Assembly (NCBI GenBank): GCA_028583405.1
Contig: CM053244.1
Span: 4,914,299-4,978,298, forward strand
Reading direction: 5' to 3'
Length of the DNA stretch: 64,000 bases
DNA from: Pogonophryne albipinna
Lineage: Eukaryota > Chordata > Actinopteri > Perciformes > Artedidraconidae
Made by a program: the position numbers and the translations under genes. Shown here piece by piece: positions 9,804-64,000 of this stretch. Under the pieces are notes generated by a model. It was given only the letters and a program-made list of their open reading frames with translations. It had not been told where the DNA came from and did no database searches. Position 1 is the stretch's first letter. Each line of letters begins with the position of its first letter.

Positions 9804-9833
9804 ATATGTGACCCGCTCTATCGAAATCAGTCG
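9804..9833 (+). repeat. Left terminal inverted repeat
   Basis: ATATGTGACC followed by CGCTCTATCGAAATCAGTCG. It matches the reverse complement of 14483-14512 at 29 of 30 positions; similarity stops abruptly after AGTCG. Confidence 0.85.
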
Positions 9834-9907
9834 GAAGTCGCAACGGCTCATTTCGAAATAAACGTGGATTTGTATAAAAAACTCGTTTTTCGGGGTTCGG
9901 GTGTTTT

Positions 9908-10231
9908 GTTTGATTTTAAATAAACAAAGTCTTGGCTTTCAGAATATGAAAATATTATTGTCAAAATCACACGATAAATACATTTTTGAAGCTTGTAAAG
10001 GGACGAAGACGGCTCTCACTCGCACTCTGCTGTTCCTCACGCCGCCCCCCCTCCCTCCGGCTGAAATTATGAATGTAAGCGTATAGTAATCATAGATAAC
10101 ACGGCAAGGTCCCGTTACAGTTTGTTTTCATCTGATTTCAAATAAACAAAGTCTTGACTCTCAGAATATTAAACTTGTTTCGTCAAATTCAGATGATAAA
10201 TATAACTTTGAAGCTTGTAACGGGAAGATGA
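9908..10231 (+). repeat. Tandem duplication of about 100 bp in the transposon 5' region
   Basis: A segment containing 'aaataaacaaagtcttg' and 'tttgaagcttgtaa' occurs at about 9908-10008 and again 222 bp further on at about 10130-10231, with scattered substitutions. It lies upstream of the first exon and could carry promoter or transposase-binding sites. That role is inference from position only. Confidence 0.7.
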
Positions 10232-10471
10232 CAGGCGGAGAACGGAGTAACGTAACGTCACAGCTGACATAACAACAGCCGCTGTTTCTTGTCAGTGTTT
10301 ACCCGGGAAACAAACACAATAGACACAAACGCAAAAATACACAAACACACACACTATACACACCAACATTATTCCTCGCGACCTTCCCCCAGTAATCCGA
10401 AACAAACATATTTTTCCTCCGTAGACCTACTACTTGATAATTTGATTAGCCGCTAACAATTAATCAGATCG

Positions 10472-13400
10472 ATGGATTCCAGAGAAGAAGAAATTGCAAG
10501 ACTGTTGAACTCCAACATTGTGAGAGGGACAGCCTCTGATGAGCAATGGGTTGAGCTGATCACAGATTACTTTCTGACGGCACCGGTTGAAGTTGCCCCA
10601 TTATCCGGCTCCGATTCAGAGTCAGACAGCCCTGACAGCAGCCCTCAGACCACAGATGCTGAAGATGAGGAAGACACCACCGAGGACGGACCACTTGTTA
10701 GTGACCCGGTGGCTGAGACCCTTCAGACAGCGGCAGGGTATTATGTGAGCGAGGACAGCGCCAACGAAACTGAAAAAGCCCGTGCGTATAGGTGTAGCTG
10801 CACTTTTAATAATGGTGTTCCCTGTTACACTCGTTTCACACCCGAGGAGATGGCCAAGACACGAGATCAGATGAATGAGATGACAAGTGGTAAGTCACGT
10901 GATTTATTTAAATGCCTTTGACTTGGGAGGGGGCTGGGTTGTGTTTAAAAGAAAAAGCTAAATGGGCAGTGATAAATCTTTGGTAGGCCAAACCTATGTG
11001 TCGAACATTATACAAGGGCAATGTGTGTACGATGGGCCTGTGTGTTTTGTAATACAAGTTAAATTTACATTTTCAGTGATGAGTGATTAACACAAAAAAT
11101 AATGCAATATTTAAAATATTTCCAGGTGAAAAGCATTTGGTCCTCATTGGAAAAATAAGCACCAACATGAATCTCTCCAAGCTGTTCAAAGAGAGGCCAC
11201 CAAAAAGACAGGAAACAGCAGAGAACGTCTTATTACATAGATGGGCAAAAAATCTGCCGGGAGACATTCAAGTTTTTACATGGGTGAGTTTGATTTTGAA
11301 TAGACATCAATTTCTGCAGTATTACTATTTTAAAATGAAGTAGTCAGTTATTAGAATTGAACTGAGTTCGAGTTTATCAGCTCACAGTTAACAACAGAAT
11401 AGAAGCAAAATATGTTAACAATAACAAATTGAAAATACGTGATTGTACATAATACAAAATATAAAATCTATAAATGTATCTTTGTGCACGTGAACCCATA
11501 CATGTATACTCATACATAAAAATGTACAAATAAAAACAGACTTACATACGATTGTATTTAAGTATTTGTTTTTATTTGTACATTTTTGCATACTTAAAAC
11601 TAAAGCAATGATAAATACAAAATATAACACAAACTAGGACCAAAACCTAATTACAATCTTCTGTAACCGACATTATCCCTTCAAAGACTTGTATTTTAAA
11701 CGTTTTCAGAATGTGTCAAGACAAGCTGACCGCGATCATTCGGTTCTATAAAGAACATGGCTTGGCACCAAGGCTGAGGCGTGGTGGTCGTGTGATGAGC
11801 AGAAGGGTGCTGTCCTTTGAAGACATCCAGCGAATCGCACATTTCATCAATAACTTTGCAGATGTATTTTCCATGCCACTTCCTGGACGGATACAAGGGT
11901 TTAAGATGACAGACATACGTGTTCTTCCAACAACCGAGACCAAGTCCTCTGTGTGGCGGAAATACAAGGCCCAGATGCAGGAGAATTGTGGGTATTTTCT
12001 TGCATCTTAATTATTTGTTTGTTTTTTACACAGAGAAGCCTGTTTTTTTTCAATGAAAACTAATGATGAGTAATCTAACAATGCCATCTTTCTCTTTAAT
12101 CACCTTCCCAGGTCACCGTGCTGCTGGTAACAACAAATTCAGGAAGCTGTGGAAGGAGCTCATTCCCAGTGTGGTGATTGGGAGACCGATGACAGACCTT
12201 TGTTGGTTTTGCCAAAAAAATAACATGGCAATTTACCGTAGCTCCAATCTTCCAGACTGCGTAAAATCTGCTAAACTGAGGAAGCAGGAAGAACACCTCC
12301 GCACCGTGGGTATAGAGCGGCAGGCTTACCAGGAGATGGTTGCTAGCTGTAAGCAAACAGTTAGTGAGCTGGGAGTGAAACTAGGACCCAACCCAACCTG
12401 TAGCAGAGAAACTACCATCCACTACAGCTTTGACTACGCACAGCAGGTGAGGCATATGATAGTGACGAATAATGTGATAATGATACATCACTTCAAGCCC
12501 CTAAACAGATGTGTTGGGTTTGTATCAATATGTATGTTCACATACATTCTTGAAGAGTGATATGTAGATGGGGAAATAAACTTATTAGGATTTTCTTAAC
12601 AAATGAAGTCGGAGTATCTGTTTTTTCCTCTACTGTTAATAGACATCACCAACACAAAAGGAAACGTACAGTCACAAAATACTGCAAATATAATTTAAAA
12701 ACTCATGTTGTCTTCCTCATTAGTCCATACATCTGTTGGTCTGGTGTTACAGGTCCACTACCCCAGTGACCCTCTCCAGCCGGGGCCCATTTACTTTCTG
12801 GTTCCCAGGAAGTGTGGAGTATTTGGTGTCTGCTGTGAAGGTGTTCCTCTACCTCATTGATGAGGCTCACTGCAACAGCATGGGCTCTATTGCTGTCATC
12901 TCGTTCCTTCACCACTTCTTCTCCCAGTATGGGCTTGGGGAAAAACATGTCCTTCTGCACTGCGACAACTGCTCTGGGCAAAACAAAAACAGGTACCTTA
13001 TCTGGTACCTAGCTTGGCGATGCATGGTGGGACTCCATACAACGATATCTTTACACTTTCTGATTGCTGGCAACACCAAATTTGCGCCTGACTGGTGTTT
13101 TGGCCTATTTAAGCAGCGGTTCCGCCGCACACCAGTGTCCTGCCTGGAGGACATCAGCCAGGCTGTCAGGGCCAGTACAGAGACTGGAATCAACATCCCC
13201 CAGCTGGTTGGGAATGAGTCAGGGGAAACCTTCCTGCCCCCAGCTTCAGACCTCTGCCAGGTATCAGAAGGTACCATCACATCCGCTTCACAAGTGCCGA
13301 GCCTGGAGTGGTTTATGCCAAGGAGCTAATGGACAATCAGGAGGTTTCCTACATGCTGCTTCGTCCAGGGGGCGTTAGTGACCGTGTAGCACGTCCTACT

Positions 13401-13522
13401 GACCTAAGTCCTCCTGGGCTTGATGGAAAACGGCAGTGGTACCTCTATGAGAGAATCAGAGAGTTCTGCACGGAGGAGGCCAAAGACATCACCTGCCCCA
13501 AACCCTCAACACTTTATTGCTA
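10472..13522 (+). pseudogene. Multi-exon DUF7869-like putative transposase gene, broken
   Basis: Exon 1 is 10472-10889 (ATG at 10472, acidic Ser/Asp/Glu-rich N-terminus, then CSCTFNNGVPCYTRF). Exon 2 is 11126-11283 (KISTNMNLSKLF). Exon 3 is about 11710-11987, exon 4 is 12112-12446 (DLCWFCQKNN, HYSFDYAQQ), and exon 5 is 12753-13522. All introns have GT-AG ends, and phases agree between exons 1/2, 3/4 and 4/5. The core has YLIDEAH, LHCDNCSGQNKNR and NTKFAPDWCFG, which look like spaced acidic positions of an RNase H-type nuclease, and ends near DITCPKPS. From memory the family is annotated in fish and invertebrates as uncharacterised DUF7869-type proteins. Breaks seen: a deletion after MCQD in exon 3 with loss of phase, a short deletion before YLIDEAH (about 12838-12850), and a one-base shift near 13240. 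Transposase function is inferred from the flanking inverted repeats. Confidence 0.75.
11290..11700. other. Intron 2 of the DUF7869-like gene
   Basis: AT-rich intron without coding. It contains an imperfect inverted repeat around 11465-11590: 'gtacaaataaaaacagac' at about 11524 versus 'tttttatttgtacat' at about 11568. Confidence 0.6.
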
Positions 13523-13986
13523 GAGAGTGAGCTAGTGAGTGAAGGCATAATTAATCATTATTATGTCATTCTTAATATTCCGTAAATACTGTAGTGATTT
13601 GTAAATATATTTCAAATTGGTTTAATGTACTTGTTTTTACTATGTTGCTTGCTTTTGCTATATTTGGATGCTGTTTTCTGCTTTTTCACTTCATTATTCC
13701 AGATGGGAAACTTGATTTGCAGTCAGAAGCGCATGATCATTTTGATTGATAATCGATATTGTACATTTTATTTATATATTATTTTGCTTGTGTGTTCACA
13801 TGCAGCTTCTTTCTGAATGAACGTGTGCCAAGTTATTGAACTGTATATAATTTGACATATTCACCAAGTATTTATTAATGCCAACTAAGTTTAATGTGTG
13901 CTTTTTTTTTTTTTTTTAATACAGGTTCCAGAATGTTATGCTTTTTACATGCCTACATGCACCTATGCTCATGTACATATCACCTC
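13523..13986. other. 3' untranslated region of the DUF7869-like gene
   Basis: AT-rich, no coding feature. A T-run at 13903-13918 precedes the foldback at 13987. Confidence 0.5.
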
Positions 13987-14166
13987 GTGCACACCCATAC
14001 CCACGTGCATGCCCATTATCACGTGCACGCTCATTAGTATACAATTTGAATGTTTGCGTGCTCAAACATGACCACTAAAATGTACACAAGTTCAACTTTG
14101 CATTCAAATTGTATATTGATGAGCGTGCACGTGACAATGGGCGTGCACGTGGGTGTGGGCGTGCAC
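13987..14166. repeat. Subterminal foldback with 66-bp arms
   Basis: The left arm 13987-14052 and right arm 14101-14166 are inverted copies of about 90% identity, separated by 48 nt. The arms are made of repeated GTGCACG/CGTGCAC and CCCA words, so smaller hairpins can form within each arm. It lies about 320 bp inside the right end of the transposon. Confidence 0.85.
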
Positions 14167-14482
14167 ATTTATATGAGTGCCTTAGTTCTAGGGATTGAAG
14201 TGTGCATGTGACAAAGGTGGAACAGTATAGTCTGTGTGTATGTGTTTGTGCAAACATGCCATGGTACATTTGTTTTATTGTTCATTTGAATAAATACCTT
14301 AAAATTGACTGCAAACTTTGAAGGCCTTTCTCTCAAAATGATGAGTCGGTGACAGTCATTATATAATGGGACATATTTTGCTTAATATTTGGAGTACGAA
14401 AACAATCCTGATATCATTAGAAAGCTAGGACTCTCCTCTTTCCAGCAGTGTATACAACTCAAAATGTGTCTTCGGGTCAATG

Positions 14483-14780
14483 CGACTGATTTCGATAGAG
14501 CAGGTCACATATACACTAAGTATATAAGTCACGGTACTACTTGGTCGGCGGTGACTATCCTCGGTGCAGTAAGTGCATAATCCCTGTGTGTCCTTGGAGT
14601 GCGGATTTATTGGTTCAGTTAGATCCTGCTCACAGGAACAAGTTTTCCTGCAGTTCTCACAGCACACTCTGGACAGGAAGTGTGTGACCATGCTTAAACC
14701 TCGGACTGTAGGGAACAGCTCCAGCTACCTGCAGCAAGCAAGGGTCAATGTGACTGATTTGGATAGAGCAGGTCACATAT
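14483..14780 (-). repeat. Right terminal inverted repeat and a second outer copy
   Basis: 14483-14512 pairs with 9804-9833. A second copy in the same orientation stands at 14751-14780. Over 39 bp (14474-14512 and 14742-14780, from gggtcaatg to cacatat) the two differ at only two positions. The 268 bp between them carry no gene. This is either a neighbouring related element or an alternative right end. Confidence 0.8.
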
Positions 14781-16017: not shown

Positions 16018-16176
<159 letters not shown>

Positions 16177-26790: not shown

Positions 26791-26801
26791 AAGCAAAGCC
26801 C

Positions 26802-27120
26802 ATCAGCGGACTGGAGGAGCTGGGTCGGGAGGACATCCCTCCAGCAGTCGACCCAGAAGGCGCCATCAGCGGACCGGAGGAGGAGGATCGGGAGGACATC
26901 TCTCCAGCAGTCGTCCCGGGAGGCGTCATCAGCGGGCCGGAGACGGAGGATCGGGAAGACATCTCTCCAGCATCGACCCGGAAGCCGCCATCAGCGGGCC
27001 GGAGGAGGAGGATCCAGAAGACATCTCTCTAGCAGGCAGCCCAGAAGCCGCCGTCAGCGGATCGGGGGAACAAAGACACGGCAAGCCAGGACGGCACAGG
27101 GGACTACACTCTCCGCTGAA
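26802..27120 (+). repeat. 63-bp (21-codon) tandem repeat in an ERV 3' region
   Basis: About five units begin at 26802, 26865, 26928, 26990 and 27052 with 'atcagcggaccgg', each encoding a version of ISGPEEEDREDISPAV. The reading frame is kept for three to four units. The same repeat, with 2-3 units, is found at 51034-51190 directly after an integrase C-terminal domain. Confidence 0.85.
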
Positions 27121-27138: not shown

Positions 27139-27300
27139 TGTGGAGTTTGTTTTAATATCCCATTTTTGAGGAACTTTGTTTTAATAACCCATTTTTTGAG
27201 GAACTTTGTATTAATATCCCATTTTTTGAGGAACTTTGTTTTAATATCCCATTTTTTGAGGAACTATGTTTTAATAACCCATTTTTTGAGGGAGAAGCTG
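27139..27300 (+). repeat. 30-bp tandem repeat, five units
   Basis: Units of exactly 30 bp (word 'attttttgaggaactttgtt') with anchors at 27168, 27198, 27228, 27258 and 27288. In one frame each unit encodes RNFVLISHFL or a close variant. A shorter array sits at the equivalent place of the provirus at 51245-51370. Confidence 0.9.
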
Positions 27301-28836: not shown

Positions 28837-29674
<838 letters not shown>

Positions 29675-51010: not shown

Positions 51011-51033
51011 GAGGAGGTCGACTCGGAAGCAGC

Positions 51034-51190
51034 CATCAGCGGACTGGAGGAGCAGGATCGGGAAGGACATCTCTCCAGCAGTCGACCCGGGAGGCGTCCA
51101 TCAGCGGACCGGAGACGGAGGATCGGGAAGACATCTCTCCAGCATCGACCCGGAAGCCGCCGTCAGCGGATCGGGGGGACAAAGACACGG
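51034..51190 (+). repeat. 63/66-bp tandem repeat
   Basis: Two to three units beginning 'atcagcggactgg' (51034, 51100, then a shorter one near 51161), the same family as 26802-27120, encoding variants of ISGPETEDREDISPAS. Confidence 0.85.
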
Positions 51191-51244: not shown

Positions 51245-51372
51245 CGGTGTGGAGTTTGTTTTAATATCCCATTTTTGAGGAACTTTGTTTTTTCCCATTT
51301 TTTGAGGAACTTTGTTTTAATATCCCATTTTTTGAGGAACTTTGTTTTAATATCCCATTTTTTGAGGGAGAA
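51245..51372 (+). repeat. 30-bp tandem repeat, four units
   Basis: The same unit as 27139-27300, with one unit shortened near 51290 (ttgttttttcccattttt). In frame it encodes RNFVLISHFL. Confidence 0.9.

Positions 51373-63573: not shown

Positions 63574-64000
<427 letters not shown>

Follow-up and report, generated by a model that had tools for sequence, protein, structure and literature searches.

Positions 9804 to 14512 of the window (the whole analysed stretch of 64,000 nucleotides from contig CM053244.1 of the fish Pogonophryne albipinna) are one copy of a DNA transposon. This is very probably a dead copy whose gene, a member of the DUF7869 family, encodes a transposase with an RNase H fold, a catalytic triad of three aspartates (DDD) and DUF7869 as the catalytic core. 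The transposase reading is strongly supported because genomic copies share their ends, the predicted fold and triad are of the integrase type and bacterial homologues lie between terminal inverted repeats (TIRs) at 8 of 13 loci. On the same evidence, we agree with the original prediction, made from the letters of the window, that the family is a transposase and not a host protein.

The arms at 9804–9833 and 14483–14512 were complementary at 97% over 30 nt (29 of 30), as predicted. When up to three mismatches were allowed, the window contained three occurrences of the TIR core, whereas 100 shuffled versions averaged 0.00. The left flank, ATAT (9804–9807), is followed by the left TIR at 9808–9833 (plus strand) if the target site is read as 4 bp; if it is read as TA (9805–9806), the TIR starts at 9807. 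The right TIR is located at 14483–14508 (minus strand), with an end common to other genomic copies, and the right flank (14509–14512) has the same letters as the left one. The third TIR copy with its ATAT flank (14752–14780, minus strand, 29 bases, 93% match to the left end) is located 268 bp past the right end of the element. No partner end for it was found in the window, and it is the solo end of another copy, separate from the gene-bearing element. The earlier placement of the right end at 14780 was probably due to this third copy and had to be corrected to 14512. The right ends of 26 of 34 other copies stopped there, four ran 1–7 bases on and four fell 2–3 bases short, i.e. 30 of 34 matched through 14512. 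On the left, 34 of 35 copies matched from 9804 or further out, and one matched from 9807. Since the other genomic copies stop matching at or near 14512, the element comprises 9804–14512 including flanks; the element itself is ~4.7 kb long (9808–14508). The predicted subterminal repeats were present on each side: a direct repeat of 107 nt with 80% identity (9904–10010 and 10126–10232, plus strand) and an inverted repeat with 66-nt arms and 91% identity (13987–14052 and 14101–14166).

The genome of P. albipinna (1.07 Gb) was searched with a TIR pattern of 24 bases with one degenerate position, and the reversed pattern was used as a control. A search of this kind had been proposed as a check on the original prediction. 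The pattern matched 715 + 718 = 1433 times and the control not at all. The first 100 places in the TIR listing, on C1 and part of C2, included 16 pairs of opposite-strand neighbours within 5 kb. All of them faced inward, and 13 of the 16 spanned 820–919 bp. In a second search, with the element extended to 14612 as query, 40 of 3400 candidates were scored, giving 124 matches. These included at least nine other gene-bearing copies, of which five had both ends, one the right end only, one the left end only and two neither. The five two-ended copies sit on five contigs, with their ends at the shared points or a few bases away. Moreover, at least 29 internally deleted copies (~880 bp) joined the first ~690 bp of the element to the last ~200 bp, and 28 of the 29 reached the right end within 3 bases. 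Shared ends, deleted derivatives and TIR copy number together mean that this is a transposon with non-autonomous derivatives and not a host gene. A partial copy with 96% identity (G000:C3:9125564-9129750) was seen on the same contig, 4.2 Mb away, with both ends absent from the match list.

The gene matched the Pfam family DUF7869 (PF25273) with an E-value of 1.2e-11 (45 bits, cut-off 26). Its exon order and motifs agreed with those of a 648-aa fish homologue, P0001 (Pagothenia borchgrevinki, 75% identity), and its best protein matches came from Pagothenia and Dissostichus, which are Antarctic notothenioids. All five exons are on the plus strand. Exon 1 (10472–10889) was 74% identical to residues 1–138 of P0001. 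Exon 2 (11126–11283) is broken in frame near 11180. Exon 3 (11710–11986, donor uncertain by a few bases) was 83% identical to residues 196–284, and exon 4 (12112–12446), 85% identical to residues 286–400, carries the DLCxxC motif and the first presumed catalytic Asp (YSFDYAQQ). Exon 5 (12753–13523) comprises the DUF7869 core with the PF25273 match and holds the second and third presumed catalytic Asp (LHCDNCSGQNKN and KFAPDWCFG). When P0001 was used in tblastn, three frame changes were found in total: the one in exon 2 at ~11180 and two in exon 5 at ~12849 and ~13230. In addition, the motif GHTKF reads GNTKF in the window copy, whereas all 95 aligned relatives have the H at this position. Judged by its letters, the copy is dead because of the three frame changes and the N in place of this conserved H. 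The predicted five-exon gene was right in its exons and domain, with the correction that it is not intact.

The predicted model and the alignment gave an RNase H fold with the acidic triad in the order strand b1, strand b4 and following helix. The triad is D393, D472 and D514 (P0001 numbering), and the third residue is Asp. This is in line with the earlier remark that the acidic residues are spaced as in an RNase H-fold nuclease, the predicted fold and triad being of the integrase type. The 50 structural matches listed were mostly retroviral integrases, and the remainder were Mos1 and IstA. Chains of hAT, P and piggyBac were not among these 50, which does not exclude those superfamilies; Hermes (a hAT) appears in the Foldseek list. 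A sequence search of solved structures returned chorismate mutase at E 0.16 and no other match, and P0001 matched DUF7869 and DUF7916 alone in Pfam at E 0.5.

Homologues were numerous, with 752 in one search and 736 in another (L002 query), and they include proteins from gastropods and Capitella. Among the 120 listed per search, the names were mostly uncharacterized or hypothetical, with a few wrong-looking ones (chaperonin, 40S ribosomal protein). P0002, P0138 and P0266 are misleadingly named in public records (40S ribosomal protein S1, chaperonin and Csm2 small subunit). When GTDB contigs were scanned, 13 bacterial loci were obtained, with 29–47% identity in the best segment, in Desulfocicer vacuolatum, Desulfobacterales, Thiomargarita, a Legionellales metagenome-assembled genome and others. 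At 8 of the 13 loci, paired TIRs surrounded the gene, with arms of up to 43/43, 39/39 and 36/36 identical bases. The divergent L060 locus had no convincing TIR (best 17 nt). No match was found with the L002 protein in tblastn against plasmid and phage records. In IMG/VR there were 0 TIR matches, and related loci were not confirmed with P0001 or A1. In two quick trees, in which the labels animal and bacterial refer to the search that found a protein and not to its taxonomy, the animal-query proteins fell on one side with high support both times; the bacterial proteins were one-sided in one tree and needed two changes in the other.

Many of the 120 listed matches of the L002 search were on contigs of ~2–3 kb, near the element length. 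The bacterial contigs of ~2.0–2.6 kb look as if assemblies had broken at the ends of a multicopy element. The Desulfocicer element adjoins translated stretches (L002 8895-9702) that give the impression, without a domain scan, of an IS3-like integrase-type transposase, and the two flanks of the L002 element do not combine into one gene.

The target sites were similar in fish and bacteria. AWWT preceded 674 + 671 = 1345 of the 1433 fish TIR matches. Because the pattern itself includes the final T, AWW alone is new information. In the bacterial elements, 15 of 16 flanks were AWWT (background 0.037; P about 5e-21, the element end having been defined as the first G after the ends were seen). For the bacterial flanks, AWWT was preferred to a 2-bp reading as AT. 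Fish and bacterial elements thus have a preference for AWWT targets. For the window copy, a TA target duplication had been predicted. TA is present at both ends, but an exact repeat of 4 bp can also be read there (ATAT|GTGACC...GGTCAC|ATAT). A target-site duplication (TSD) of 4-bp ATAT or 2-bp TA is possible but not settled.

Several observations weigh against a transposon with this transposase. Two of the nine other gene-bearing fish copies showed neither end, and a blind 200-kb genome sample contained 0 TIR copies (~0.3 expected at 1433 per 1.07 Gb). No paired ends were seen at 5 of the 13 bacterial loci, these being truncated, degraded or lacking a clear pair, and stops occurred inside the match in the bacterial copies L009, L012 and L013. 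Equal 4-mer flanks were found in three of eight bacterial elements (AAAT, AATT and ATTT), which is roughly the number expected by chance when both flanks are AWWT. DUF7869 was rare in bacteria: among 395 genomes in the phylum of G001 it was found in G001 alone, and among 86 genomes in the family of G001 it was found in three, of which one has the divergent L060 type and another a piece of 33 residues. Furthermore, the best Foldseek match (8ea3_X) superposed poorly (E 4.8e-4, TM 0.18, rmsd 24).

If the transposase works as its parts suggest, the cysteine-bearing helical N-terminal part would bind the 30-bp TIRs, and the D393–D472–D514 site would cut the ends and join them into AWWT sites (ATAT here). 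Movement would be by cut-and-paste, with a TSD whose length is likewise presumed. The transposase may also mobilise the ~880-bp internally deleted copies in trans. The bacterial insertion sequence-like elements, which share this transposase and have AWWT flanks, very probably form one lineage with the fish element, distantly related to ISAzo13 transposases.

Elsewhere in the window, similar tandem units of ~63 bp were seen at 26800–27069 and 51018–51174, and identical 30-bp units at 27146–27291 and 51255–51367. Their sequence suggests that these tandem units, 24 kb apart, are two copies of a longer dispersed repeat. Perfect dinucleotide runs were located at 16020–16175 (TC), 29301–29399 (CA) and 63865–64000 (GT).

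The chances are about even that the element belongs to an already described superfamily, Sola (as a Sola2- or Sola1-like element), in which case DUF7869 would be a second name for the core of the Sola transposase. Such a placement would refine the transposon reading and not contradict it. Sola, for which Bao et al. 2009 is said to be the source, as it is for Zator, reportedly has a DDD triad, a 4-bp TSD and a range from bacteria to metazoans. The third catalytic residue is also Asp here (D393, D472, D514). In the available part of PMC3627910, dictyostelid Sola2 elements have 4-bp AWWT TSDs (ATAT, AAAT and ATTT), and AWWT flanks were present at the window copy (ATAT), at 1345 of 1433 fish TIRs and at 15 of 16 bacterial ends. 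This fit is the strongest reason not to call the element new. On the other hand, Sola transposases reportedly have no similarity to any known transposase; some DUF7869 relatives, in contrast, score above the cut-off of the ISAzo13 domain. In a mollusc survey with Sola1–3 profiles, the accessible text of PMC10294476 describes Sola as apparently restricted to bivalves, unlike DUF7869 with its named gastropod and Capitella proteins; this argument is weak, as genomes and copy filters differ.

Membership in the Zator/ISAzo13 (TP36) transposon group is unlikely. It is favoured by PF07592 (ISAzo13), the sole DDE (Asp-Asp-Glu) transposase family among those listed for the homologues. At E up to 1, PF07592 matched 10 of the 58 members from the animal query, with 9.4e-5 as the best E-value (25 of 32 families listed), and 3 of the 37 bacterial members, with 0.0019 as the best (25 of 27 families listed). 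Of 99 divergent homologues, 26 bore both labels, PF07592 and DUF7869, which covered the same residues in those checked. When seven proteins of the divergent group were scanned, PF07592 was above its cut-off over the DUF7869 residues in three (P0264, P0316 and P0266), just below it in P0255 and P0251 and absent from P0320 and L060. Against membership, PF07592 does not match P0001 at E 0.5. The NCBIfam ISAzo13 model NF033519 gave only 22.3–23.7 bits in three of six proteins (cut-off 200) and no match in the other three, and it was not listed for P0001 and three bacterial proteins at E 1. Zator is reported to be similar to ISAzo13 in the available parts of PMC10045372, which gives 3-bp TSDs for both, and of PMC5718144, which treats eukaryote–prokaryote superfamily pairs; a passage of PMC7386202 places Zator in the IS630-Tc1-mariner group. 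Unlike this reported 3-bp TSD, no 3-bp direct repeat flanks the window copy (one copy). The ISAzo13-type homology is weak, though repeated, and puts the element near a known group.

That DUF7869 elements form an undescribed animal and bacterial lineage, related to ISAzo13/Zator and with a DDD triad and AWWT targets, is possible but rather doubtful. The original prediction had called the transposon undescribed. This was not shown, as ISAzo13-type homology puts it near a known group and Sola fits by description. A literature search for DUF7869, PF25273 or the motifs found no relevant paper, and among the other literature listed no title dealt with this family; any claim of novelty in print is limited to that scope. 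The animal–bacterial pairing of DUF7869 was absent from the eukaryote–prokaryote pairs named in the available parts of the surveyed literature, including PMC5718144.

A host gene lying by chance between unrelated ends of miniature inverted-repeat elements is very improbable: two of nine other gene-bearing copies lack a TIR in the match list and a solo TIR lies nearby, but the idea is already contradicted by the ends that five gene-bearing copies on five contigs have in common and by bacterial homologues between TIRs at 8 of 13 loci, and the deleted copies retain element sequence on both sides.

The useful result is that DUF7869 is tied both to bacterial TIR elements and to the ISAzo13 domain. 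DUF7869 homologues labelled uncharacterized could be re-annotated as transposases, and the bacterial elements, which share the catalytic triad and resemble the fish element in their target sites, offer a small system for its mechanism and target duplication.

No Pfam model of Tc1/mariner, Kolobok, IS481EU/Ginger or PHIS matched P0001 at E 0.5; to our knowledge, not every transposon superfamily has a Pfam model. PiggyBac and Kolobok have a TTAA TSD in the available part of PMC9587614, versus ATAT flanks here. Parts of PMC9208149 and PMC5199201, and of PMC4455052 for the Repbase transposon classes, were also used in the superfamily comparison. The structural match to Tc1/mariner (Mos1) is a loose one only (rmsd 21.3 over 283 residues). 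Retroviral integrases differ as well: identity is 11%, and the present element is a DNA element bounded by TIRs, between which no retroviral genes were seen. ISAzo13/TP36 and Zator appear to share a homologous catalytic domain, to judge by the overlap of PF07592 and DUF7869 in divergent bacterial members; they differ in the reported 3-bp TSD, as opposed to AWWT (ATAT) flanks here, and the DUF7869 proteins are far under the ISAzo13 family cut-off. Sola1/2/3 (Repbase) are likened to the DUF7869 elements by description and not by transposase sequence, the duplication here being a candidate only. What they have in common are TIRs, a DDD triad and a bacteria-plus-animal range, as is said of Sola, and the 4-bp AWWT sites reported for Sola2.

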